Assembly: GCA_021234155.1 (NCBI GenBank)
Contig: JAJEKV010000011.1
Span: 11,695,255-11,759,254 of the forward strand
Length of the DNA: 64,000 nt
Direction: 5' to 3'
DNA from: Isoetes taiwanensis
Taxonomy: Eukaryota; Streptophyta; Lycopodiopsida; Isoetales; Isoetaceae
Shown: one piece after another, positions 12,811 to 64,000 of the stretch
How positions within the stretch are numbered: position 1 is the stretch's first letter
Layout of the letters: the number at the start of each line of letters is the position of its first letter
The notes under the pieces: generated by a model
The model's database searches: none
Told to the model about the DNA's origin: nothing
Seen by the model: the letters and a program-made list of their open reading frames with translations, nothing else
Made by a program: the position numbers and the translations under genes

Positions 12811-13868
12811 AAAGGTCGCAAAAAAATTACGTCTTATAGTGCAAGTTGGTATTATTGAATGGGTGCCATGGGACTGTCATGAAAATATTCACAAAGGCAA
12901 GTTGATACGTAGATGGATCTAGCTCATCCATAGATAGATTTGTCTGTAGATGGATTTATTTCAGACTTTGATATTTCTGAAGACCTCTTTCATTTCTTAG
13001 ACGAGCATTCCGGAGCTCTGAACCTCGAATAGGGTAACTTTTTTATTGACCTACCCAGTTTTTTGACCATCACAGCACATATAAGCACCTTCACCAAATA
13101 ATTTATGTCATCGTCATTTGCATCACTAATATGCTCATTATATCCTTTATATAATAGAAAAAACTCATGATTTTTTGAAGGGCAATGAAGGGCTATGGAA
13201 GGGCAATGAAGGGCCCTGTGCCTTATCATTTTTAGTTGCTTGACTTGCAAGAAGAGCTTTCAAGCTCTTAAAAGCTCTTGTGATATGCCGATTTATTGAT
13301 CAAGGAAGATAAGAGAAATAGCATATTAGAGATGCTGGTATTTACAACAGGAACAAGCAGTAGGCATGACACAGGTATAGCCAATTTGTTCCAGCAGTAC
13401 CATTTGTAAACGTGTCTACCCCTTAGCAAGACGTATTTAAGGTAACTCGAACCAATATTTGTTAAAGACATTCCCTCATGTGTTTCTCATATGCGGGGTT
13501 GTTTCCAAGAGGTTCTAGAATATTCTAGAACCTACATGCATGCGCGACACTTGGCATGATCTCATCCATTGGAGTGGCGTGATCCTGACCATTGGCCTGC
13601 ATATATAAGGAGGCATCTCCTTCTTGTCGAACTATTCTAGTTCAACGCCAGTCTTGAGCCTTCTAGGCATCTGTCTCGTATTCCTGCTTGCCTTCGGGCC
13701 ATTGTACTCTTGATTCATGTTCATGTATTAGATTCTTTGCCGATCTTGGCATATTTCTTCCGTATTTCTTGCGTATTTTCCACGTATTTTTCTTGTTTTC
13801 GCATAGGTTCATGACACCGGGTTGCATCTCCGCAGTCCGATGAGGTAGAAAGGGCCCCTTCCCGAGGA
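12811..13868. other. Unassigned; possible solo LTR
   Basis: No ORF of note. From about 13278 (TGATATGCCG) to about 13818 (TTCATGACA) the stretch has an LTR-like look: TG start, CA end and a strong TATA box (CATATATAAGG, about 13601-13611) followed by a T-rich leader. I found no target-site duplication and no partner LTR. Confidence 0.3.
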
Positions 13869-14718
13869 TTGATACACAATACAATTCATTGCCATGTTTA
13901 GAGCAATTCAATACATGGCAGCGAGATTTTTGCTATATGTATTTTAAGTTTGTGTACAACTTCATCATTGGTTACATTAGACCCTTTGATGGGCACTCGT
14001 TACTAGTTTCTTTTAAAAACAACTTTGTACAACTAGATTTATATCTTGAAAAATGTCCTTGACATAATGGTTGGTGGTAGGTAGCCAACAAACAATTAGG
14101 TTATGAGATGAATTTATTTGTCCTCAAGCTAGAATTTGATGCATCTCGATTGTCCAGAATCCGTCTACCAGTCTCTCTCACCAAAGACTAGTTGTGTGGC
14201 GTCGATTCAATCCGAATTCTAGAGATGACGGAGGGACGTGGAGATGATTGATGAGCTAAACTGCTCAAAAGATGCTGAGGAGGGTGATGAGGATGGAGAG
14301 GGAGAGGGCGGATAGTCATTTGGGTTGAGCAGGGCACCAGGAGTGGACGACGAGGAAATCGGAGCAGGCATCGACATTGATGCTACTATGGTTAAGGAGG
14401 GGGGAGCAGATGGGGGGGTAAACGGAGGAAGAAAAACCCTCTACATCACTACATTTCCAGGAACCCAAACCGCCTTCAACCCTAACTTCACTAATGCAAA
14501 TATCTCTAAAAGGCTGCTGTGCCAAACCAAGAAGCCTTCCCGGCCGGTCCAAAATGTTGCCGGAAACATTTCTCACCACGATTCTGCGCACCACCGGAAT
14601 CGCATTTCCGTCGAAATTCGAATCCGGATGGTCGCCGGACATCCCTGTCATGGCTATGGCTACTCCGACGTTGAACAGCGCTACATTTCTCACAAAAATG
14701 TTTCTCATATACCCCCCT
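13869..14718. repeat. Segmental duplication, partner of 15829-16675
   Basis: About 850 bases matching 15829-16675 at high identity, in direct orientation, about 1.96 kb apart. It covers the 3' flank and the last part of exon 5 of the GH28 gene. Homology stops at 14718, where the 36-bp tandem repeat begins. Confidence 0.9.
14316..14718 (-). pseudogene. Truncated GH28 polygalacturonase, C-terminal third
   Basis: It encodes the last 130 or so residues of the neighbouring GH28 protein, from GGYMRNIFVRNV to the same stop, with very few changes. The catalytic NTD and DD segments are absent. Upstream on the minus strand the frame enters a 36-bp repeat instead of GH28 sequence. The near identity to the intact copy points to a recent duplication. 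A fusion transcript cannot be excluded, but no promoter or signal peptide is apparent. Confidence 0.85.
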
Positions 14719-14719
14719 C

Positions 14720-14816
14720 TGCATGAACAGGGTCGTAGGCACAGCCGCCAAGATCTGCATGAACAGGGTCGTAGGCACAGCCGGAAGATCTGCATGAACA
14801 GGCTCGAATCGTGACG
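14720..14816. repeat. 36-bp tandem repeat, 2.7 units
   Basis: Units start at 14720, 14756 and 14791 with TGCATGAACAGG; the first two continue GTCGTAGGCACAGCC. It sits exactly at the breakpoint of the GH28 duplication. Confidence 0.9.
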
Positions 14817-15828: not shown

Positions 15829-16272
15829 ATTGATATACAATACAATTCATTGCCATGTTAAGAGCAATTCAATACATGGCATCAAGATTTTTGCTATATG
15901 TATTTTAAGTATGTGTACAGCTTCATCGTTGGTTACATTAGACCCTTTGATGGGCACTCGTTACCAGTTTCTTTTGAAAACAACTTTGTACAACTACTAT
16001 CTTGAAAAATGTCCTTGACATAATGGTTGGTGGTAGGTAGCCAACAAACAATTAGGTTAAGAGATGAATTTATTTGTCCTCAAGCTAGCAATGTGATGCA
16101 TCTCGATTGTCCAGAATCCGTCTACCAGTCTCTCTCACCAAAGGCTGGTTGTGCGGCGTCGATTCAATCCGAATTCTAGAGATGACGGAGGGACGTGGAG
16201 ATGATTGATGAGCTAAACTGCTCAAAAGATGCTGAGGAGGGTGATGAGGATGGAGAGGGAGAGGGCGGATAG

Positions 16273-18033
16273 TCATTTGGGTTGAGCAGGGCACCAGGAG
16301 TGGACGACGAGAAAATCAGAGCAGGCATCGACATTGATGCTACTGTGGTTAAGGAGGGGGGAGCAGATGGGGGGGTAAACTGAGGAAGAAAAACCCTCTA
16401 CATCACTACATTTCCAGGAACCCAAACCGCCTTCAACCCTAACTTCACTAATGCAAATATCTCTAAAAGGAAGCTGTGCTAAACCAAGAAGCCTTCCCGG
16501 CCGGTCCAAAATGTTGCCGGAAACATTTCTCACCACGATTCTGCGCACCACCGGAATCGCATTTCCGTCGAAATTCGAATCCGGATGGTCGCCGGACATC
16601 CCTGTCATGGCTATGGCTACTCCGACGTTGAACAGCGCTACATTTCTCACAAAAATATTTCTCATATATCCCCCCCTGCCCGCCCCTGTTCTTAGCGATA
16701 CCCCTGTTTTTGAATTCAGTACTTTTATGTCTTCTGCATAAATTTCTGATATTCCTCCTGAACTCTCACTCCCGAATGCAATTCCGGCCGATCTCGTTGT
16801 CTGCCCTGTGATTCTTCTTATGAAAATATTATTGCTTGGTTGCCCATATGAAATCCCGTATTCATCCCACCCGCTTTTGATCGCTATCACATCGTCTCCG
16901 TTCCTAATGTAGCAGTCTTGTATGCACACATTTGTGCACGAATCTGTGATAAAAAAGCTTAGAAATTTGTAAGAAAAGTGCAGAATCTGAATACAAATTT
17001 TGGGCTTTATTTAATTCGTTAGCGCAAATCTTGTGAATCTACCTACCTGGGTCGATTCCGTCGGTGTTGGGCGCATTTTCTGGTGCTAATATTGTCAGCC
17101 TTTCAATGAATATATTTCTGATAAAAAACTGTTTTTAGTTTAGCCTCTGATACAAACCTTTTAGCTTAGAAATTGAAAAACGGAATTGAAGAAGGAAAAC
17201 GAACGGAATTGATGGAATTAAAAGCTTCGGTTACCTAGAATACACGGGATGTATGTTCCAGAAGGGCGAATTTATGAAAGTTATATTGGAAATTACTACT
17301 CCGTCGCAGTTTATAAGCTCCAAAAGATGAGGCCTTGTATGATTTAACAGACCCTCTGCAGACCATTTCCACCAGGCAGAGCCTTGCCCATCGATTGTTC
17401 CGTTATTTCCTGTTCAATTTCTATGTATCAGCAGAAGAATTTAAAGCAAAACATGACCCAATTGTAAAAAACGATGGAAAAACTCGTAATTCTACCAGTT
17501 ATTACAACGTCTGTGAGATTTGTTCCATGAATCAGACTGATATGCCTGCCTCCAGGATACTCTCTGCCTCTTCCATACGACGGCAATGGAGAAATTACAG
17601 GCCACAACTCAATTTCCTGCAGATTAGAAGAATCAATAACTAATTTCAAGTTTATTTCCACTTTCAAAAAGGGAGCTTTTACCTGCGCACCAAGAATTGA
17701 GGCGCCATTCTCCAGAAATAATGTGATGTGATCTGTAAGATTGAATGATCCGGTAAGCCATTTACCTGCCGGAACATACAATTTAACACCGCCACGGCCT
17801 GCGAAAGAGCTCGCGTACAGAATTGCATTCTTAAACGCTTGGGTATTCAGAAAAATTCCATCTCCCTTGGCCCCGAAATCGGAAATTGAGACAGTATGGG
17901 ACCTCTGTATCAGAGATTGAGATTTCCATAAACTGTGGCAGCCGACGTCGGATCCAAAACCAATTGGGTTCTGGATGCTGCACAGTGCCGGAATTGAAAC
18001 TAAGATTAAGAAGAAAAAATGGAAGCTCTTCAT
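16273..18033 (-). CDS. Probable polygalacturonase / GH28 pectin hydrolase
   Basis: Predicted exons on the complement: 18033-17683, 17616-17496, 17409-17235, 17117-17047 and 16943-16273. Joined they give 462 aa with all introns GT-AG and phases consistent. GH28 enzymes cleave pectic polygalacturonan or rhamnogalacturonan in the wall. The first 19 residues form a signal peptide. Seen in order: VSISDFGAKGDG near residue 50, GRHISLIHGTNLTDVVITG near 140-158, NGTIDGQGSAWW, then NTDGIDP (Asn233-Asp235), GDD (Asp256/257) and SAGIAFGSESSGG at 291-303. The last replaces the GHG of classical polygalacturonases. This belongs with the plant 'probable polygalacturonase' clade that also has GRGGY (about 330). 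The family's usual length is 430-490. The substrate is unproven. Two broken relatives lie at 14316 and 294. The upstream flank is a D1 repeat copy. Confidence 0.88.
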
Positions 18034-18070: not shown

Positions 18071-18560
18071 GGAAAAAAGGGGCCTATTTTTGGTGTCCTA
18101 GCCTTTCTGGAACCAGCAAAGCAATGCTTGAATTGGGGCCCAATTTTTAGAATTATTGTCCCTTATTTCTTCATTTTAGTGATGAATGAATCATTGAGCA
18201 AGCTTTTACCACATTTATCATAGCTTGTTTTCCTAGGCTTTCTCACAATTACTTATTGGGGGGTAACAATAGGTTGTTGTTCCCTTTGATTGTCATCCTG
18301 CTATATTCTTGGTAACTGTGCTTTAGAATTTTCAATTTAGATTCTTACAAAATAGATATTATTTTCGCTTTTCAAAAAGGTTGGATGGATCTTAGCTAAG
18401 AGCATCTCTCAAGCAATCCAGATCATGGGCATCAAGACTAAGTTTCAAGAAACTACAACAATAATAGTTCTAGTATCTAACGCTATGGCATCTTTTAAGC
18501 CATGGAGATTCAAGTTAAAACATCGGGTAAATAGTATTTTTGGATTGTTCGAAGGGCGAA
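18071..18560. repeat. Dispersed repeat D1, copy 2 (GH28 upstream flank)
   Basis: It matches 381-800 and 30955-31400, including the CAAAGCAATGC and CCCAATTTTTAGA stretches shared with copy 1. It begins about 40 bases upstream of the GH28 ATG, so it holds most or all of that gene's promoter. Confidence 0.7.
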
Positions 18561-18602
18561 CCCCTTTGGAGGTGAATACTCTACAATATTGCATGAATGT
18601 TC

Positions 18603-19150
18603 TGTAATGTTCCTTAACCACCTTGGCCTAACCAACTGTTATTCAGATGTTTATGGGAAGCCCATCCCACCCTCTTATAGTAGAATTTGGAAATGCCACA
18701 CCAAGATCTACTCGAGCAGTCTTTCATGGGTTCAATACACTCTCTCCCACTAGAACTATGCGTCTTTGAGCATCACAATAGACCACACCACCCTATGGTG
18801 TCCAACACCATATCGTCCAATGTTATCCAAATCATACATGCCCCCATGGATGCTGGAATTCGAGCTTTACTCTGATACCAAATATAACGTTCCTTAATCA
18901 CTCCCAGTCTAACGAACTGGCCAAGATAGAAATCCATCCCACCCTCTTATGATGGTACCAGGAAATGCCACATTAAGATCTACTCAAGCAGTCACCCATA
19001 GGTTTGTAACAATCTAATGTAACCACCACGGCCTAACCAACTAGCCAAAACGTTCGGATATTTATGGGAAATCCATCCACCCTATTATGGGGTATCAGGA
19101 AATGCCCCACCAAGATCTACTAGAATAGTCTACCATGGGTCTGTTACAAG
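18603..19150 (-). repeat. Three tandem copies of a short repeat with 5S-rRNA-like core
   Basis: Copies at about 18603-18760, 18886-19006 and 19010-19150; others at 31410-31580 and within LINE-A at 46251-46400. On the minus strand each contains a segment resembling the 3' part of plant 5S rRNA (box C and beyond): ATGGGTGACTGC, then AGTAGATCTT and GTGGCATTTCC, close to ATGGGTGACC...AGTCCTCGTGTTGCAT in 5S. Known 5S-carrying plant elements are Cassandra TRIMs and SINE3-type SINEs. The rest of the 5S gene is absent, so this is not a 5S gene. Confidence 0.5.
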
Positions 19151-24109: not shown

Positions 24110-24337
24110 TGTTTTTGACTTGTTAAACCTTTGGTTTCACCTGCATGAATGAATAATTGAATAAGCTTTTACCACATTGAGCATAGCATGTTTTACTAGG
24201 CTTTCTCACATTTACTTATTGCGAGTAACAATAGGTAGTTGTTCCTACCCATTGTTACTTCCCGCTATATTCTTGGTACCTTTAAAGTTTTTATAGATGT
24301 GCTCTAGAATATCCAATTTAGATTCGTACAAAACTTC
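24110..24337. repeat. Dispersed repeat D1, copy 3, left part
   Basis: It matches 465-675. It stops at TACAAAACTT (about 24337) and resumes at GGATTTTATTTTGGC (about 25960), so the LINE fragment between them is an insertion. Confidence 0.75.
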
Positions 24338-25957
24338 ATAGATGGATATATTCACTCGGCATGCACCTCAATGTTACTCAACGGGGAATCCTCTCCCATA
24401 TATGCAATCGGAAGAGGCATTAGACAGGGCTGTCCATTAGCCCCGTTTTTAATTAATATAGTAGCAGAAGCATTCTTACAGCTGTGGCCTCAAGAGATGG
24501 TTTGCTAGAAGGCCTTCGCGTGGGGGATTGATCTCAATAGATATGTAACCAGTATGCGAACAACTATTTTCAATTTCTAGTAGCAGAGAAGAGCAATTTA
24601 AAAACTGCTAGTCAGTTGTTAGATACTGGCGTCAGAGTGCCTCATTATCTGGAAAAAAATGTTCGGCACAATGGGCCAGGGAAGGGCCGCATCCTAGTTG
24701 TTTACAGCGCCTCCTGTAGAAATCAAACCAGAAGGAGAGTATTCTAATCTTCTGGGAATCCCAGTGGGAATTAATGTACCCACAACAAAAGTGTGGGATG
24801 AGATGATTTTAGGATTAGAAAAGCATCTCAATTGGTGGAAAGTGGCAAAATTATCAATGGCTGAAATGATCATAATTGCAAAGCACGTATTGTGCAGCAA
24901 TATCATCTACGTTTCGTCTCCTTATAGCTCCATCAGAGAAAGTAAACGAAATGAAAGGGGCAATCAAGAATTTTGTATGGGGCGGGAACAAAAGAGCACT
25001 AGTGAAAAAGCATGGTGGAAATGTAAAAGAGGTAAGGAAGAAGGAGGAATAGACATGATTGATTTTGCCTTAGAAAGCAAAATACTAGTAGCTAAATTCA
25101 TGTGAAATATTCTAGAGAAGAAAACAAAGTCATCAGGCCTTCAACTCATAGTACAAACCATAATGTTTTGCTCCAAGCACTCTAAGGTATCAGCACAGGT
25201 ATCTCTTCTATGGTCTCTCTTTTATAGCCTTAAACCAAGTATTGAGGCTTCCCCATTTCTGAGAGGACTTATCTTCGCATGGAATGTGGCAGAAAAGCTA
25301 TGCGAGTAGCACTCCGCCATGGTGGATCGCAGTCAATTACCGCAACAAGAATGGAGCGCTGGCTATGTTAGTTGACGTTAGAGTGGTAAGAAGGTGGATC
25401 AATTGTGGCATAGATTCATGTGCAGCATGGTATGATGGCAGCCAATTAATGTAATGAATAGTCTTCAAGCAGCATTTTGGCCTTCAGAGCAAGGACAAGG
25501 TAAGTGTACCAGACCACATTAATTGCACAAGCAACAAACCTTGAAGCCCTGACCAGTCTTTATAGGTGGGGTTATTTGTGAAATCAGCATACAAACCTTT
25601 AAAGATAGAAGGCATTATATTGTTACCAGCACAATGGAATGTGCAAATCTGACATACTGCTGAAAGGAATCTAGAGGTACGTGGATGAAACTTCTACCTC
25701 CCCGAGTGAATTCGTTATTATGGCAAGTGGTACACAAGTCCCCTATGATAAACAATATAGTGTCCAAATTCAAGCATGATGTGAGCCCACTCTGTCCACT
25801 ATGCAAGACTGAAGAAGAATCTTTAAAACATTGCCTAGTATAGTGCACTGACTTGCAAGTTGTGTGGGTATGGTGTATGGATATGTTAACAGTGCATTGG
25901 GAACTAGGAACCTTCTCCTAGCTATGTATACAGCAGAGTGGTCAGTCCCAAAACGCA
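24338..25957 (+). pseudogene. L1-type LINE fragment inserted in repeat D1
   Basis: Decayed RT C-terminal half. Readable parts are RQGCPLAPFLINIVAEAFLQ (about 24430), LLGIPVGINVPTTKVW (about 24750), a SMAEMIIIAKHVLCSN block (about 24860) and GGIDMIDFALESKILVAKFM to 25105. A zf-RVT domain, LPPRVNSLLWQVVH...SPLCPLCKTEEESLKHCLV, lies at about 25695-25840. Stops and frameshifts break it. ORF1, endonuclease and the RT palm N-terminal half are missing. It interrupts a D1 copy cleanly, giving a relative age younger than D1. No target-site duplication was identified. Confidence 0.75.
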
Positions 25958-26845
25958 TTGGATTTTATTTTGGCATTTCAAAAGTTTGGATGGATCTTAG
26001 CTAAAAGCATCTCTCGAAAATTCTAGATCATGATCGCTTAAGTAGGGCAAGAAGATCATGTTTTCAAAAACTACAACGACAGTCCTTATTGCGAACTATC
26101 TAATGTTAAGGCATCTTATAAGCTATGTTTATTCAAGTTAAAGCATAGAGCAAATAGTAATTTTGCATTGCCCAAAGGGAAAAACCTCATTTCATCATAA
26201 ACATTATTGTATGATGGCAGTATATATAAATTGTGTACTGCTATGTGCACCTACTATTGGCATTTATTGCTACATATTGCATTGTCCTTCAGACCAAATG
26301 ATCTTCGGGGACGTTAAAATCCAATTCAACTTTTAGTGCCTGTGGTGCATTTAAAACAATAGGGCAGGGCCTTAGCTTCGTCCCTTGGCCAATTACTTTG
26401 GACTAAGAGATTGGGGGGTGATTAAACTGCTTTACATAGTGAATACAACTCAGAGAGTTTTGGTATCCTTAAATGGGATTTTGGAGCCAAGATTGTGCAA
26501 AGCATAATCTAGGATCACACTGTGATCCGAAACTACAAAATCAGAGATGTTATATCAAGAACTTGAGCAGTCTAGAAGCTTTAATAGCAGATTATCGATT
26601 ATGTTGGGTAAAATCAAATATTACATGTGGTGTGATCTAAGTATGCAACGAGAATGGCATAGTTAAGGGTTATTCTGAGCAAGGCCAGAACAATTCTATT
26701 AGTTTTTGCAATGATTGAAATAGGTCAAAGCGTATAATCTATTTCAAGACATGATAATTATACCTGTATCTTGGATATTACTATAACATTCATCTCTTAG
26801 AGATTTAGTGGCTTTATAATTGACTTTCAATCATTTAAAGAGTAG
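25958..26845. repeat. Dispersed repeat D1, copy 3, right part
   Basis: It parallels 910-1880, with shared segments such as CTACTATTGGCATTTATTGC and GGATTTTGGAGCCAAGATT. Homology fades near 26845, shortly before the Rep-like locus. Confidence 0.75.
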
Positions 26846-26962
26846 TTTTTTCCTGCATGCAGTATAGTTTGTTGTTTCATGGAACCATACATTTATTACA
26901 TAAGTTTTAGATGGTTCATGCCAGGTATTGTATTTTTTTTTTTAATATGGAAATAGGGCAAA

Positions 26963-27238
26963 ATGGAATCTTTGTTTCATGTATTCATGGACGGATTTGT
27001 GCGCCCTTGGAGTGCCCGACCATGCCTAGAATGCAGCTGGATCAATTTAGAAGGTAAGATTTGCTTGGTTTGGATTCAGAAATCCCTTTACATGGCGATT
27101 CGGGGCCTGTGTCAATATGAAGTTGGAGATTGGAGGCGTCTGCTCAGCATCGAAGGTGAGATCTGCCACTTTCTTTCTCTGTTGCGTTTTGCTTGTTCAG
27201 GGTTAATTCCTTTGTGTCTGTTTACCATCTGCCTATGA
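26963..27238 (+). CDS. Possible N-terminal exon or upstream ORF of Rep-like locus
   Basis: A 91-codon plus-strand ORF with no recognised domain. Around 27155 it meets a plausible donor (GAAG/GTGAGATC), and an acceptor-like CCCAG lies at about 27278-27282. It may therefore be an upstream exon of the Rep-like gene or a chance frame. Its second half turns hydrophobic after the putative donor, as intron sequence might. Confidence 0.25.
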   Translation: MESLFHVFMDGFVRPWSARPCLECSWINLEGKICLVWIQKSLYMAIRGLCQYEVGDWRRLLSIEGEICHFLSLLRFACSGLIPLCLFTICL

Positions 27239-27313
27239 TGAGGGAAGCTAGGAGGGGGGGTTGAGATGCCAGAAATGCCCAGGCAGGTTCCTTCTCTGGG
27301 ACTTCGGGTCTAG

Positions 27314-28222
27314 ATGCAGCCAGGCATGTGGTTGAGAATGAGGGAACTGGCCTTATTTAGTGTGACCTTGGGAATGGCTGGTATGGATACTCCTCCTGAG
27401 TATTATGATATGCTAGTTAAATTTTGTGAGATGGACTGTATTGCAGGGGCTGTAGCAGCAGAGAAGAGGAGTGATCTTTATCACTTACATTTTCAGTGTG
27501 TTTTTAGACTATCCCTGGAGCCTCCCAGACTTGTGAACTTGGCCATAAAGAGACGATTTGGGTGGGGATCCACGAAGCCTGTTAGGGTGGTTCTTGTGTG
27601 CAAAGCACTGAAGAACACTAGACTCCATTGCTTTGAGGGCTTACTTGGATACTGCATGAAAGACATGGGTAAGCCACACTTCAGGCTGCACACCAAGAAC
27701 ATTTCAAAAAGGCTGTTGGAGATGGGAAAAGATTTGTATTTGTTGTATGATTTTGGAGACGTAAAGCATGTAGTTGTTCTAGACAACAAGAACATCTTGG
27801 TAAGGGCATTTCATTTCGTGAACTATCACGGAGGAAGACAGCTTACTGCAAGCCTAGTTTACACCATTACGAGACTGCTCAGAACTGGCAAATTCATCCT
27901 CTCCACTAGTTGGATACTGCCTTCAAACACCGCATTCATATCTGAACATAGGGTTAAGGCTACTTGGCACCTCACCTTAAATCCGAGGGTTGCACTGCCT
28001 AGTGATGTAAGGTGTGTTCTACATGGAATCCCAGCTGGGATGGAACCCATTCAGAGGCTTAAGGGCGCAAATGTTACTGGGATGAGGCTGGGACGCCTGA
28101 GGACATGGATGAGAACTTTGTTGAGGGGCAAGATGATGAGTATAGGCCAATTGTTGATATGCATGGGACCTCTTACATTCCTTTGGATACAACAGACTAT
28201 GGAATGGCAGTTGGATGAGTGA
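27314..28222 (+). CDS. HUH (rolling-circle) Rep endonuclease-like protein of a mobile element
   Basis: A 302-codon ORF. Three Rep motifs occur in the right order and spacing: motif I ALFSVTLG (residues 13-20), motif II HLHFQ (His57, His59, Gln61) and motif III GYCMKD with catalytic-type Tyr113 and Lys116. HUH enzymes nick one DNA strand, stay bound through tyrosine and drive rolling-circle replication or transposition. About 190 further residues show no Walker A box, so no helicase is fused. Upstream in frame is a TAG immediately before the ATG at 27314, so the true start may lie in an upstream exon. From about 28055 another frame gives a more protein-like acidic continuation, hinting at a frameshift or splicing near the C-terminus. 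Replitron transposons encode such single-domain HUH proteins, and that is my favoured reading. An integrated CRESS-virus Rep is less likely, since there is no helicase or capsid gene. Confidence 0.65.
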   Translation: MQPGMWLRMRELALFSVTLGMAGMDTPPEYYDMLVKFCEMDCIAGAVAAEKRSDLYHLHFQCVFRLSLEPPRLVNLAIKRRFGWGSTKPVRVVLVCKALKNTRLHCFEGLLGYCMKDMGKPHFRLHTKNISKRLLEMGKDLYLLYDFGDVKHVVVLDNKNILVRAFHFVNYHGGRQLTASLVYTITRLLRTGKFILSTSWILPSNTAFISEHRVKATWHLTLNPRVALPSDVRCVLHGIPAGMEPIQRLKGANVTGMRLGRLRTWMRTLLRGKMMSIGQLLICMGPLTFLWIQQTMEWQLDE

Positions 28223-28293
28223 AAGCAATTTTGGCCTGTTGTAAATAATTTTTCTTTGATTGATCATGTTTCTTTGTTTGCAGTTCTTTGACA

Positions 28294-28845
28294 ATGCCTG
28301 GTTTAGAGATGGAGATTGGTAATGGGAGCGGGGAGCGTGGTTGGGGCTGTTGTTGGGGGCCGGCCTGGGGCTTCCGATGTCATAAGCCTTGTGGGTGTTG
28401 TAGGGGGTGGTGCAGCCATGGTAATGAGGTAATTGATCTTACTAGTGATGAGGATGCCTCGCCATCACCTCCTGTGAGGCCTCCTGCGCCCGAGCCAAGT
28501 ATTCATGATGTCATACATAATGCCATGCCCTCTCCCCTTGTTTTCTCTCCAAATGGGGAAAGAGTGCAGGTGGCCTTGAAGGTGGTCCAATCTATTGTGA
28601 ACATCAATACGTTGGCCGACTCTGTGGCAGCCTCTGTTCGTTTAATCAGGATGCAACTCGGGCGTTTGTTTGCAGCTTTAGAGGATGCAGTTGCACACAT
28701 GGAGTGGGAGGAGGTGGAGGTAATCCAAGTTGAGCGCCAGCATATGTGGGCACATATGAAGTTGGTAAGGGCTCTTCTGATTAGGGAGTTGAGGCGCATT
28801 GATGCAATGGCGAGGCGGCATAATGCTGTCATGAATAACAATTAG
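28294..28845 (+). CDS. Unrecognised ORF with SUMO-interaction-like motif and helical C-terminus
   Basis: 183 codons from the ATG at 28294, just past an acceptor-like TTTGTTTGCAG (28273-28283). The N-terminus is Gly/Cys-rich, with eight cysteines between residues 19 and 40. Next come NEVIDLTSDED (46-54; VIDLT plus acidic residues is a textbook SUMO-interaction motif), a Pro-rich linker, and roughly 100 residues predicted by eye to be helical (SIVNINTLADSVAASVRLI, then VRALLIRELRRIDAMARRH). It has no homologue I recognise. The position after the Rep-like ORF, on the same strand, suggests a second protein or alternative C-terminus of the same element. The Cys-rich part could be a frame artefact. 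Confidence 0.4.
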   Translation: MPGLEMEIGNGSGERGWGCCWGPAWGFRCHKPCGCCRGWCSHGNEVIDLTSDEDASPSPPVRPPAPEPSIHDVIHNAMPSPLVFSPNGERVQVALKVVQSIVNINTLADSVAASVRLIRMQLGRLFAALEDAVAHMEWEEVEVIQVERQHMWAHMKLVRALLIRELRRIDAMARRHNAVMNNN

Positions 28846-28997
28846 GTATTGTTTTCTTTTATTGCTTTCTTGTGTTGAATCTTTCTTGAGTTATTTATAT
28901 GAAGGTCTGTTGCATTATGTGAAGAAAAAAAAGTATGAAATCTGAAAAATATGCCTTTAAGCTGTTTGTGTATTTGAAAATTCAAAAGAAAATGCCA

Positions 28998-29025
28998 CGG
29001 TTCTATTGCGATAGCAATAGAACCG
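28998..29025. repeat. Perfect 12-bp inverted repeat (hairpin) after Rep-like locus
   Basis: Arms 28998-29009 (CGGTTCTATTGC) and 29014-29025 are perfectly complementary around a GATA loop. It lies about 150 bases past the last ORF of the locus. HUH elements typically carry such hairpins at origins or termini. Confidence 0.9.
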
Positions 29026-29456
29026 ACATTCCTTGGATGGGGACGTCCTACTTGCACCTCCTATTTATACCGCCTCCTTCCTTATTTCCAGTCATCGGCA
29101 TTCTCTTGAGCTTATTTTCCTTATTGTTCTTTTCTAGCTCCACAAGCTTCCCGCCCCCCTCTCCCTTTATCATATCCGAGCTTGTTGGTCATTTCTTCAT
29201 TCGTTTTCCCATTTTCTCATTTCATGTTCCATCGTTGAAGTTGCTTCGTTTCCTGTTAGTCAGTCGGTTATCTGTATTTGTCTATTTGTCTATACTTCTC
29301 GGGTCGCTCTGCAGCACCTGTTTTCCTCCATGTTTGGCAAGAAATCCTTCTTCTCTATCCTATCAGTTTCCCTCACCCTCCCTCCCTTGATGGTTTTTCA
29401 TTTGATCGTGTTCGTTATTTCCTTTTCTATGTCCTTTAAATTTGCATTCTTTATTT
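29026..29456. other. Pyrimidine-rich sequence, no supported gene
   Basis: A 151-codon open frame crosses this stretch (28935-29390). It is Phe/Leu/Ser/Pro-rich because the DNA is CT-rich, and it reads through the hairpin. I do not regard it as coding. Confidence 0.45.
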
Positions 29457-29773
29457 CCTCAGCGTGGCTTTGTAGCCTCTGAGGCATACTTATTGGTTTA
29501 CTCTTTCTCGGCATTTCACTAGTATTTTATTTATTCATTCATGTTTTCTCTCGGTGTAGCATTGTAGCCTCTGAGTCAATATTTATTATTCATGGTTTCT
29601 CTCGGCGTGGCGCTGTTGCCTCCGAGATCATATTTATTGTTTTTTCTCGGCGTGGCGCTGTAGCCTCCGAGGCAGCACTAATCGGTTGTTTTTTCTCGCG
29701 ATGGTCATTCCGCGGACGGTTTCCGATTGGTCGGCTGTTGTTTCTTTCTCGGCGTGGCCCTGGAGCCTCCGAG
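29457..29773 (+). repeat. Array of five spaced stem-loops with covarying stems
   Basis: Units at 29457-29484, 29550-29575, 29600-29627, 29646-29671 and 29747-29773. Consensus parts: CTCGG, GTGGCGCTGTAGCCT, CCGAG. The outer stem CTCGG/CCGAG changes to CTCAG/CTGAG in unit 1 (a paired change) and to CTCGG/CTGAG in unit 2 (a G.U pair). The inner GGC/GCC stem is kept in four units; unit 2 has AGC/GCC. Start-to-start spacings are about 93, 50, 46 and 102. Half units occur at about 29507 and 29695. Confidence 0.85.
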
Positions 29774-30385
29774 TCTTCTTGCCTATGGCATCTAATTCAT
29801 TGACGGGTTATTTTTCTTTCAGCCTTGATTTCTTCATGATTGTTAGGGTCTTGTGGTTGCCATAGTGCGTGGGGTCGTGCTTTAACTATTTGCTTGGGTT
29901 TCCTCAAAAACCTAAGAAGGCGTGATTCTTCTTCCCGATGAGGAGCAGTCACCGAGTCTTCTCACCTTTGCATCGACCAAGTGGCGGATAAAACCATCTT
30001 TCATGTTGTATTCTTCAGTTTCATCATGCTCTCGATGATTGTCTAGTTTCGGAGCATTTAAAGTTCATATTTCCAAATTTATCTATACCTAGTGAGGGGT
30101 CCATTTGTACCAATGTTTTTACAAAGCTCAATGAGAACACCATTTTTGGCCAATTTTTCTTTCGTTTCACTTTTTGCCTTTTATTTCTTTGTCGTCTTGG
30201 TTTGCTCCATTCCTTTGTAGATTCCTCTTCTATCGGCCAACTAGTTGTATCATAGGACCCATCCTAGGAAAGCTTTGTTTGTTTGAAAAAAGAAAGGATT
30301 GGATGTCTGATTGGCTTTCATTGCTTGCATTGCTTGCATGAGAATAGTGATTTGAAAAAAAAAGAAAAAAAAAAAAGGAGGGAGA
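29774..30385. other. Unassigned sequence
   Basis: T-rich, no supported gene; poly-A rich near 30350-30380. Confidence 0.35.
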
Positions 30386-30404
30386 ATGGCTGTATGTATG
30401 CATG

Positions 30405-30500
30405 TGCACTTGCATGGGATTAGCCCCTGCCCTTTAAGGGCGGCCAGACTATTTGGATCTGCGCAATGTCCAGGGGGTTCAAATCCCCAAGCCTGTGTAT
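30405..30500 (+). repeat. tRNA-like SINE candidate
   Basis: A perfect B box GGTTCAAATCC (30476-30486) sits in a T-arm-like stem (GGGG...CCCC). A GGATTAGCCCC stretch lies upstream as a weak A box. No complete cloverleaf forms. Confidence 0.35.
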
Positions 30501-30575
30501 TGCTTTCTATTCATATGACCTGCAGATGGAGTGTTGATATTGTGGCAAAGTCGACTGTATGGGAATGATGGCGCT

Positions 30576-30660
30576 GGTGTAGAGTGCAGACTGTTTGGGC
30601 ATGATCCATAAGCTCTTAATATAGACTGGAGACTTTTTGGGCGTGATCCACAAGCTGTGG
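30576..30660. repeat. Imperfect 42-bp tandem duplication
   Basis: Two units share AGACTG-like sequence, TTTGGGC, TGATCCA and AAGCT. Confidence 0.65.
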
Positions 30661-30954
30661 CAACCTATATAGAATTGGCTTTATGTGGCATCTCCTTATG
30701 ATTGGGGATTGAATTGCCAAATTAGCATGTTGCTAGTTTCGATCAAGGCATATGAAATACGTTCTTCAATGGTTGTCAAACGCCCTTAGGAATAGGGCCA
30801 CATAAGCGTTTGACCCCAGCCCTTGTGGAGGTGTACGCATGGTATGCTCCTAGAGGGAATATTCCTTGGTATATTCCCCCATCCAACGCTTGGGGAATTG
30901 CTACAGGTTCCATCAACCATAATTATCATAATGCATGTTACACTTGTACAATAC

Positions 30955-31400
30955 ATGCAATTATTTAGAATTATTATCCCTTATTTCTTCATTTTAGTGA
31001 TGAATGAACCACATTTATCGTAGCTTGTTTTCCTAGGCTTTCTCACAATTACTTATTGGGGGTAACAATAGGTAGTTATTCCCGTTGATTGTCATCCTGC
31101 TATATTCTTCGTAAATGTGCTTTAGAATTTTCAATTTAAATTCTTGCAAAATAGATATCATTTTCGCTTTTCAAAAGGCTGGATGGATCTTAGCTAACAG
31201 CATCTCTCGAACAATCCAGATCATGATCGAAGGGCATCAATACTGAGTTTCGAGAAACTACAACAATAATAGTTCTGGTTGCAAACCACCTAAGGTTAGG
31301 ACATCTTTTAAGCTATGGGAATTCATGTTAAGGCATAGGGTAAATAGTATTTTTTGGATTTCCCAAAGGGAAAACCCCTAAATCATTTGTTGGGGGTGAA
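30955..31400. repeat. Dispersed repeat D1, copy 4
   Basis: It matches 18140-18560 closely (TTAGTGATGAATGAA, TTTTCCTAGGCTTTCTCACA, GGTAACAATAGG). As at 18.6 kb it is followed directly by a copy of the 5S-like short repeat, so the two units were duplicated together. Confidence 0.75.
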
Positions 31401-31409
31401 AAATTCTAC

Positions 31410-31580
31410 AATATTGCATGAATGTTTCTTAACCACCCCGGCCTAACCAACTGGTATCCGAATGTTTATGGGGAATCCATCCCATCCTCCTATGGTGGTA
31501 TCAGGAAATGCCACACCAAGATCTACTCGAGCAGTCCCCCATGGGTTCGTTACACTCTCTCCCACTAGAACTATGCTTGT
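31410..31580 (-). repeat. 5S-like short repeat, single copy
   Basis: Same family as 18603-19150. The minus strand reads CCCATGGGGGACTGC, then AGTAGATCTTGGTGTGGCAT. Confidence 0.55.
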
Positions 31581-31624
31581 CTTTGAGAATTACAATAGAT
31601 GTCCAACACCATATCATCTAATGG

Positions 31625-57242: not shown

Positions 57243-57434
57243 TAAAATTATAGTGAATGTCTATTGTGAATGTCGCCCTAAATCGGACGGCTGAGATTAT
57301 TCGTGGCTTAGATCGGATGGTTTGTGTGAATTCTAACCCTAAAAAGCCCTTTTCTCTATCGTGTTTTCCACGATCATGCCTTGCATCAGTTCCGGTTAGG
57401 TAGAGGCGCCGAAATCAAACTTACACCCACCATT

Positions 57435-58101
57435 TCACATGGTGGCGGAGCTTTGCCATGGTCGCTGGAACTCCAGCAAATTGCTCCTTAGAGATGCGAT
57501 TTCTCAGATCAGAGAATGCCATTGTCGAGCTTTCCAGTAGAAACTGCTCTTTCTTAATCCAGGTGCACATTACTTGCTTAGATTAGACGTAGCTTCTTAA
57601 AACACAAAAAGCATTTGCGTACGCTCTGTTGTGCCGGAGCTGCTTAGAGCAAAGCAAAATCACCAGTTTGCCGGAGTTCTTTGTGGCCTCTTTTCATTCG
57701 AGTTCATGCTGATTATTGCTCATAGCCTTTCTGTTTTTGAGTTTTGATATCTTCATGGTGGATCCTTTTCACATGGTGGCGGAGCTTTGCCATGGTCGCT
57801 GGAACTCCAGCAAATTGCTCCTTAGAGATGCAATTTCTCAGATCAGAGAATGCCGTTGTCGAGCTTTCAAGTAGAAACTGCTCTTTCTTAATCCAGGTGC
57901 ACATTACTTGCTTAGATTAGACGTAGCTTCTTAAAACACAAAAAGCATTTGCGTACGCTCTGTTGTGCCGGAGCTGCTTAGGGCAAAGCAAAATCACCAG
58001 TTTGCCCGAGTTCTTTGTGGCCTCTTCTCATTCGAGTTCATGATGATTATTGCTCATAGCCTTTCTGTTTTTGAGTTTTGATATCTTCATGGTGGATCCT
58101 T
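57435..58101. repeat. 334-bp tandem duplication
   Basis: Units 57435-57768 and 57769-58101, about 97% identical by eye, each starting TCACATGGTGGCGGAGC. The DNA resembles a transcribed leader (GT-rich, with CAG/GTGCAC) but no ORF is kept. Confidence 0.9.
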
Positions 58102-60011: not shown

Positions 60012-60941
60012 TCTATCTTTTAAATTTGGTTTTTCCGGTTTAGAGAAAAAAATTTTGGATTTTTTTTTAACCGATTTCCTAAGGTTTTGGGGCTTTCCAA
60101 TGCCGGAAAAAAAAACCCGATTATCCAAAAATCGAGAGAGAGCCCGAGATTTTTTTTTTCCATGCGATTTTTGGTTTTGGTTCCGATGTTTTCGATCTCT
60201 TCCTATTCTTATCCGATTCCACTTGGCGATTGATTGCATGTGACGATTGCTCAAAGCTCAAGGTTTCTCACCTCACAAAGACCTTTGTGCAAGATGATCT
60301 CCCAGTTTTCAGGGGTAGCATGTCGTTTTTCGAGTGTAAGTCGCCAATCTTTCTTAGCTTTGCGTTAAATCTTTCTTTTGTTTGATTGACAGATGCCTTC
60401 TTTAGATAGTTCAAATCTTCCACATTTTGGTCTGTTCTTTCTTTACCCCTTTATCAATTCAACGACAGAGGCATTTCTATCGTGAAGAGGATCTTGAGCT
60501 TGATTTATATGGCTCGACTTCACCAGTCTTTATCTGAACACAGGTGCGTTTTTGTATCCTTTAGTTCTTCTTTTCATAAATATTATCATTATCTAAGAGC
60601 TCTGTGTCTAGGCTTGACACAATGCAAGAGAACTTATTATGCAAGAACTGTTTTGTATAAATTTCTGAAATGGGTCCCGAGGATTTTGATGGCAGTTTCG
60701 ATGGGTCAGAGGATGGGTGGAATAAAATCATGTCTATTTGTCATGCGACCTGAAAATTGCAAGCATGGCAACCCTGGTGATGGTAACCCGTCCAACCCAA
60801 GCATCTCGATTTGTCTGTGATGAAATAAGTATGGCTCGCCCTCAAACTGCAATAATTGCTGGAGCTTGGTGGAATTGTTACTGTAGTATACTGCTGGCAA
60901 GCAAGCAGCTAAGATATCTAATCACTTCCGTTGGCACTCTT
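60012..60941. other. Unassigned; possible relic exons
   Basis: Plus-strand stretches near 60480-60545 (KRILSLIYMARLHQSLSEH, then a GTGCGT donor) look exon-like but belong to no family I recognise. Confidence 0.3.
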
Positions 60942-63376
60942 GGGCAAGCATTTCTTTCTCAAAATGATCAACGTTCATGCTCTTTTACAGGTTTTGAAGG
61001 TTTGTTTGTGGGCAAAGGTTTCCAGTCTGGGAGCTCCATGAATAGCAGAGGTATGTGGCTTGCCAGAAATCTAAGATACTTGAAATTTTGAGTAGGTTTA
61101 TGTCTTCCCGTTGCAACAAAGCATCTAGAATACATTTCTTCTCGGTTATTGTCTTGCTGCTCGCTTGGCTAATGATTATTATGCATTGCATGAAGCCAGA
61201 CATAAAAGCATGTCTTTGCACATGCAGAAATAGGACTACGGATATCAATCTTGGCTCTCTTAAGTTTTCCTTCTTTTCTCTATGGTTCTTTTTGCAAGTT
61301 GTTGCTGCTCGGGGAAACAACTACATCTTTTGCTGCCTTTTGGAGGTGCTTTATGTTTAATATTTGTTTGTTTAAGATCCTTGCATTTCACGTATAGTCT
61401 TATCAAGCTATCATAGAACCTCTAGAATAAACACTATTGTGGTCACTATGGTTGCCCGTGCAACTGTGTTTGATGCTTCAAATTTGATAGGGAGTGAGTA
61501 ATATTTTCTAGCTTACAGGTTAGGTTACAGGAACACAAGATCTTTGGCTACATTTGAGGACGAAGTACCAATCTTATTTGCATGTGCAGTTGTTTTAAGA
61601 AGCAAACTTCTGTCTTTATTCTGAATATATGATAATGGCCTTCTTTCCTTGGTACAAGATGAATCATCTCATGCCAACATGAAGGCATCTTAGTTTCAGA
61701 ATAGATGGCTCTTTTCTAAATTTTGTTCGCATGCAGGGACACATTAACTTCTTCTGACTTTATTGATATAAGCAACATTTCATTGCAATGCTTCTTTGAG
61801 CAATTGCACACCATCTATGTCTCTAGGTAAGCGTCTCAGCTTTCTGTCCATTGCTTTCCATTTTATGCAAATAAAAGCTTAAGGTTGCACTGCCATGGGA
61901 TCCTATTCCACAGTTGCATGAAGAGTTACCGTTTAGTAGATTGCATTGTCCAGGGCTAATGCTTTCTCTATTTCTTGGTTCTAGCTTATCAGAAAAGGGC
62001 AAATTTCTTTAGAATGCTATAAGTGGATCGTGTCTGTACATCTTTTTTATTACATCAAGTCGAGGGCTAACATATTAATTGATTGTAGGCCTATTGGCAG
62101 CAAGGAGCAGGTTGCTGCAAAATGCTATAAGTTGGGCCAAATAAGTATGCCTTTTATCAAAGTTGGGCAAGCATTTCTTTCTCAAAATGATCAACGTCCA
62201 TGCTCTTTTACAGGGTTTGAAGGTTTGTTTGTGGGCAAAGTTTTCCAGTCTGGGAACTCCATGAATAGCAGAGGTATGTGGCTTGCCAGAAATCTAAGAT
62301 ACTTGAAATTTTGAGTAGGTTTATGTCTTCCCGTTGCAACAAAGCATCTAGAATACATTTCTTCTCGGTTATTGTCTTGCTGCTCGCTTGGCTAATGATT
62401 ATTATGCATTGCATGAAGCTAGACATAAAAGCATGTCTTTGCACATGCAGAAATAGGACTACGGATATCAATCTTGGCTCTCTTAAGTTTTCCTTCTTTT
62501 CTCTATGGTTCTTTTTGCAAGTTGTTGCTGCTCGGGGAAACAACTACATCTTTTGCTGCCTTTTGGAGGTGCTTTATGTTTAATATTTGTTTGTTTAAGA
62601 TCCTTGCATTTCACGTATAGTCTTATCAAGCTATCATAGAACCTCTAGAATAAACACTATTGTGGTCACTATGGTTGCCCGTGCAACTGTGTTTGATGCT
62701 TCAAATTTGAGAGGGAGTGAGTAATATTTTCTAGCTTACAGGTTAGGTTACAGGAACACAAGATCTTTGGCTACATTTGAGGACGAAGTACCAATCTTAT
62801 TTGCATGTGCAGTTGTTTTAAGAAGCAAACTTCTGTCTTTATTCTGAATATATGATAATGGTCTTCTTTCCTTGGTACAAGATGAATCATCTCATGCCAA
62901 CATGAAGGCATCTTAGTTTCAGAATAGATGGCTCTTTTCTAAATTTTGTTCGCATGCAGGGACACATTAACTTCTTCTGACTTTATTGATATAAGCAACA
63001 TTTCATTGCAATGCTTCTTTGAGCAATTGCACACCATCTATGTCTCTAGGTAAGCATCTCAGCTTTCTGTCCATTGCTTTCCATTTTGTGCAAATAAAGC
63101 TTAAGGTTGCACTGCCATGGGATCATATTCCTCAGTTGCATGAAGAGTTACCGTTTAGTAGATTGCATTGTCCAGGGCTAATGCTTTCTCTATTTCTTGG
63201 TTCCAGCTTATCAGAAAAGGGCAAATTTCTTTAGAATGCTATAAGTGGATCGTGTCTGTACATCTTTTTTATTACATCAAGTCGAGGGCTAACACATTAA
63301 TTTATTGGCAGCAAGGCGCAGGTTGCTGCAAAATGCTATAAGTTGGGCCAAATAAGTATGCCTTTTATCAAAGTTG
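60942..63376. repeat. 1.2-kb tandem duplication
   Basis: Units about 60942-62163 and 62164-63376, nearly identical. The junction AAAGTTGGGCAAGCATTTC is visible at 62159-62177. Each unit contains an exon-like segment (about 61738-61827 and 62961-63050) with a GCAG acceptor, frame LTSSDFIDISNISLQCFFEQ and donor TAG/GTAAG. The gene is unrecognised. No mobile-element ends were seen. Confidence 0.9.
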
Positions 63377-63876: not shown

Positions 63877-64000
63877 TTGCACTATATTCAAAGTATTAAC
63901 ACAATTTAACGACATTCTTTTGTGGAGATCCAAATTATTTTGCACTATATTCAAAGTATTAACACAATTTAACGACATTCTTTTGTGGAGATCCAAATTA
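63877..64000. repeat. 63-bp tandem repeat running off the window
   Basis: Two identical units beginning TTGCACTATATTCAAAGT at 63877 and 63940. The array may continue past the end. Confidence 0.9.

Follow-up and report, generated by a model that had tools for sequence, protein, structure and literature searches.

The window analysed here, a 64-kb stretch of DNA, contains an open reading frame (ORF) at 27314-28222 whose predicted product displays three Rep motifs in order, followed by a second ORF and a perfect hairpin and lying between two copies of a dispersed repeat. The features of this locus are the following:

27314..28222, + strand: ORF of the putative Replitron transposase, 302 aa, from ATG to TGA; HUH domain at about residues 22-142
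27356..27373, + strand: Rep motif I, FSVTLG, residues 15-20, placed from the translation; just outside the stretch matched by PF21859
27482..27496, + strand: Rep motif II, HLHFQ, residues 57-61, with the presumed metal-binding His57 and His59; within the PF21859 match
27647..27664, + strand: Rep motif III, GYCMKD, residues 112-117, with the presumed nucleophile Tyr113 and with Lys116; predicted single-tyrosine type
28081..28218, + strand: a different frame, closed by TGA, that probably encodes the true C-terminus (the evidence is modest and comes from a single small training set)
28288..28845, + strand: second ORF, 185 aa, a candidate member of the element; no family above cut-off
28998..29025, no strand assigned: perfect 12-bp hairpin with a GATA loop, a candidate for the element's 3' terminal structure or for one resembling an origin
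25958..26859, + strand: upstream copy of the dispersed repeat, probable left bound; 80% identical over 978 columns to 921-1883, the similarity stopping at 26859
30958..31623, + strand: downstream member of this repeat group and probable right bound; it shares 80% identity with 18141-18822 and resembles 25961-26186 in part

The 302-codon ORF is the longest stop-to-stop frame within the local 4.1 kb. No frame of at least 302 codons appeared when 500 first-order Markov sequences were simulated for this 4.1 kb (longest frame 270 codons), nor when 100 were simulated for the whole 64 kb (longest 241). An earlier note on this DNA had described an ORF with FSVTLG, HLHFQ and GYCMKD in this order, and both the translation and pattern counts confirm that description, with the patterns for motifs II and III each occurring once in the 302-aa protein. 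The three motifs in order were seen in none of 20000 shuffles of the protein, while a loose HUH...YxxK pattern alone was seen in 133 of 20000. Given that the three-motif pattern was composed after the protein had been seen, the profile match described below, for which no hand-made pattern was used, constitutes better evidence than this shuffle test.

Comparison of the ORF with Pfam-A recovered a significant hit to the family PF21859 (Replitron_HUH) with an E-value of 4.9e-13 and 50 bits (curated cut-off 28.5), in which residues 23-142 of the ORF are aligned with profile positions 8-127 of 128; this was the sole Pfam-A family obtained for the ORF up to E 1. Residues 8-150, taken by themselves, scored 52.3 bits against the same profile. 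When the protein was cut before Tyr113, residues 1-112 scored 13 bits (E 0.14) and residues 113-302 scored 20.7 bits (E 5.4e-4, below the cut-off), indicating that both halves of the domain contribute to the match and that neither suffices alone. The profile search proposed in the earlier note thus yielded a Replitron_HUH match well above the curated cut-off, and these scores support the Replitron-like transposon that had been suggested there. The other option raised at that time, a plant HUH element of an undescribed kind, becomes superfluous and is rejected, because PF21859 fits. That option presupposed that Replitrons had been recorded chiefly in algae and other eukaryotes, whereas the review PMC10741241 lists mosses, liverworts, lycophytes and ferns next to green algae, and hence non-seed land plants, among their hosts.

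Outside Pfam, the ORF gave no match up to E 1 in PHROGs and NCBIfam or in the PDB. Searches for protein relatives recovered none at E 0.001 among 806 candidates, and none at E 1 among 48 candidates when restricted to residues 12-150, the collections concerned being ones that may hold few plants. IMG/VR, which may likewise hold few plants, yielded no relative, as the two pattern-matching stretches found in it failed in tblastn, and neither tblastn nor blastn recovered further copies of the ORF within the 64-kb window. We consider it very probable that the ORF encodes the single-tyrosine HUH transposase of one Replitron copy, without a helicase.

The distribution of tyrosines bears on the catalytic type of this protein. 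They occur at positions 30, 31, 56, 113, 142, 145, 171 and 183, so that the next tyrosine after Tyr113 is Tyr142, 29 residues further on; as judged from the sequence, the active site is of the single-tyrosine type. Replitrons are defined by a single catalytic tyrosine and the lack of a fused helicase, and behind their HUH domain they possess a further one, which perhaps serves oligomerisation. In the present ORF about 110-160 residues follow the HUH domain, for which there is no Pfam profile match and a model of low confidence only; specifically, residues 151-302 showed no Pfam match, SF3 helicase included, up to E 10. Helicase matches were likewise absent from the second ORF, from the alternative frame of the tail and from the upstream ORF at 26957-27238 (E up to 0.01). 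Ten further ORFs located between 27496 and 30510, on either strand, gave none at E up to 0.1; five of these ten are among the 19 ORFs of at least 50 aa that overlap 29500-30957. The earlier statement that the locus has no SF3 helicase, Pif1-type helicase or capsid accordingly stands for the nearby ORFs tested, within E limits of 0.01 to 10.

Structure models were built from the single sequence, there being no relatives to align. The model of the whole ORF has a mean pLDDT of 35.0 and that of residues 8-150 a mean of 47.8, with the first six ten-residue blocks of the latter lying between 52 and 67 and the part that bears Tyr113 below 50. The order of elements in this low-confidence model is strand 5-15, helix 20-34, strands 37-45 and 48-58, helix 64-74, strand 84-90 and helix 98-109 (model numbering, to which 7 is added for ORF numbering), with strand 1 bearing motif I, strand 3 the pair His57 and His59, and helix 3 Tyr113. 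Rep domains display the same strand-helix-strand-strand-helix-strand-helix order, with their motifs placed in this manner. Fold searches with the low-confidence models returned nothing at E 0.001, and the predicted model may be regarded as compatible with an HUH fold, which is no proof of it.

The state of this copy was assessed with a codon test trained on 1042 codons from the Pfam-supported pieces of the window. The score of residues 23-142 is circular, since those residues are among the training pieces, and the test is a weak one, since residues 143-250 of the ORF score only 1.3 bits. At the 3' end, the frame at 28081-28218 scored 16.8 bits over 45 codons, as against 7.6 bits over 46 codons for the ORF's own tail, and it reads as an acidic, normal-looking protein end. 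These scores suggest, with moderate confidence, that the last 45 or so codons of the ORF are frame-shifted; with the end of the transposase frame thus apparently shifted, the Replitron copy is probably decayed or inactive. At the N-terminus the ORF's own frame scored 4.2 bits over 14 codons, as against 7.2 bits over 30 codons for an alternative frame, and as these values leave the choice undecided, the true start of the ORF may differ from the one given above. The idea that the upstream ORF at 26957-27238 might be a 5' exon or a captured fragment of a gene was dropped; with a score of -16.8 bits over 91 codons and no matches, this ORF was left out of the element.

The window as a whole is a plant-type nuclear region rich in retroelements. 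It contains pieces of a GH9 glycosyl hydrolase, a GH28 piece and an ABC transporter membrane piece, together with reverse transcriptase pieces (RVT_1), which we read as LINE-like, and integrase, chromodomain and RNase H pieces of Ty3/Gypsy-like appearance. Duplications and tandem repeats are present at several places: a direct tandem duplication of 1.2 kb with 97.9% identity (60940-62165 and 62163-63376), a direct duplication with 96.4% identity (13868-14722 and 15829-16679) whose second copy overlaps the GH28 piece at 16273-16929, a 334-bp unit present twice in tandem with 97% matches (57433-58101), and a 63-bp unit in two exact tandem copies at the edge of the window (63877-64000). The dispersed repeat group is represented by at least four diverged copies or parts of copies that are about 70-80% alike (446-1883, 18080-19148, 24145-26859 and 30958-31623); within the copy upstream of the transposase ORF, the segment 24337-25948 is without a counterpart in the copy at 487-871.

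Going by the positions of the two flanking copies of this repeat group, the element probably lies within 26860-30957 and would measure at most 4.1 kb; these bounds are no more than probable because the flanking repeats could themselves have inserted into the element. According to the review PMC10741241, Replitrons measure 0.9-4 kb and are delimited by terminal direct repeats of 5-11 bp and target-site duplications of 2-8 bp, and the room of at most 4.1 kb between the flanking repeats is compatible with the lengths given there. A scan for element ends, in which a direct repeat of at least 5 bases was combined with a target duplication of 4-8 bases (left end in 25800-27340, right end in 28846-29300), returned 10 candidates with a best score of 10. 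This does not rise above simulation: 100 simulated sequences gave a mean of 7.67 candidates, and when their top scores were sorted and printed in ten steps, nine of the steps stood at 10 or above. As the scan did no better than on simulated sequences, no element ends are claimed.

Downstream of the transposase, the second ORF is more coding-like from about position 28426 (21.5 bits over the 139 codons of 28426-28842). Its best matches, PBP_N in Pfam (E 0.55) and 1l0q_A in the PDB (E 0.076), are not significant. It contains the stretch VIDLTSDE, which we take to resemble a SUMO-interaction motif. Among perfect stems with loops of 3-15, that of the hairpin at 28998-29025 is the longest in the entire 64 kb; 30 simulated windows yielded 3 stems of at least 12 in total, and a stem of at least 12 with a loop of 3-8 arose only once when the 2.7 kb that follow the ORF were simulated 2000 times. 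Eleven bases of the hairpin arm, searched with zero mismatches, are found within the window only in its two arms, while the 261-base segment around the hairpin does not, in its entirety, fold better than shuffled versions do. As an end signal of the element the hairpin is a lead and not a result; were it truly a terminal signal, it would supply a substrate on which the nicking reaction could be tested directly.

Further along, at 29452-29773, a 32-nt unit recurs five times at irregular spacing, its copies showing 81-100% identity to the reference copy. Most of them have CTCGG near their start and CCGAG or CTGAG at their end, and they could represent iterons or a plain repeat array. It is conceivable, if rather unlikely, that the locus typifies a Replitron lineage with two genes, an HUH transposase followed by a small protein with a VIDLT SUMO-interaction-like motif, and with a terminal hairpin recognised by the transposase as in some other HUH transposons. 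To our knowledge, both the terminal hairpin and the accessory gene would be new for Replitrons.

For the transposase itself, a likely mechanism may be outlined by analogy with the HUH superfamily. His57 and His59 would hold a divalent metal, and Tyr113, with the assistance of Lys116, would attack the single-stranded DNA of one element end and remain bound to its 5' phosphate. A second transfer would then join the strand to the target, whereby a copy would be inserted and the donor would remain in place. Copy-and-paste insertion of an algal Replitron was reportedly described by Craig in 2023. PMC13231165 gives a covalent 5'-phosphotyrosine intermediate as part of HUH superfamily chemistry.

Three other origins of the ORF have to be weighed. 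It might derive from a CRESS-DNA virus, of geminivirus- or nanovirus-like kind, whose Rep gene was captured by the plant genome and endogenised. The Reps of these viruses and of related plasmids share with the ORF motif I, the HUH motif II and a single-tyrosine motif III with a lysine, in the same order, and the CRESS Rep A0A890UQY0 appeared in a viral fold search with the low-confidence model, at rank 39 with a non-significant E of 0.12. The CRESS-DNA virus Rep, however, has an SF3 helicase after its HUH domain, whereas residues 151-302 of the ORF gave no match to such a helicase even at E 10, and Pfam offered for the ORF the Replitron family and no viral Rep family up to E 1, all of which makes a viral origin very improbable. 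The chance that the ORF is a fragment of a Helitron Rep domain left after loss of the helicase is close to negligible: the Helitron Rep has a two-tyrosine domain fused to a Pif1-like helicase, whereas the ORF has Tyr113 and then no tyrosine until Tyr142, shows no helicase match and, up to E 1, retrieves Replitron_HUH in place of any Helitron model. What could speak for this origin is the general abundance of Helitrons in plant genomes and the presence of a hairpin downstream of the ORF, Helitrons carrying one near their 3' end according to the review PMC10741241. Helitrons, too, are eukaryotic HUH transposons.

A domesticated Replitron transposase, retained as a host gene, would be in keeping with a frame that has stayed open over 302 codons while the coding regions of the retroelements in the window break into several short ORFs. 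The apparently frame-shifted tail of the ORF argues against such retention, and we regard it as highly unlikely. The reading of the ORF as the transposase of a mobile Replitron, now probably decayed, is the one carried forward here.

Replitrons were reportedly described as late as 2023, by Craig in PNAS (doi 10.1073/pnas.2301424120), and with every clean copy their ends and mechanism can be defined better. According to the review PMC10741241 no software annotates them. A Replitron copy would be expected, and indeed ordinary, in a non-seed plant, while a seed plant or a hornwort as host would contradict the reported range. In the present locus terminal direct repeats and a target-site duplication above chance were not found in the stretch scanned, and downstream there are the second ORF and the 12-bp hairpin as candidate parts of the element. 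In common with Replitrons it possesses the PF21859 HUH domain, a predicted single catalytic tyrosine and no fused helicase among the matches obtained, and the probable room of at most 4.1 kb is compatible with their 0.9-4 kb. In conclusion, the element is very probably a further copy of the Replitron, a kind of transposon already reported.
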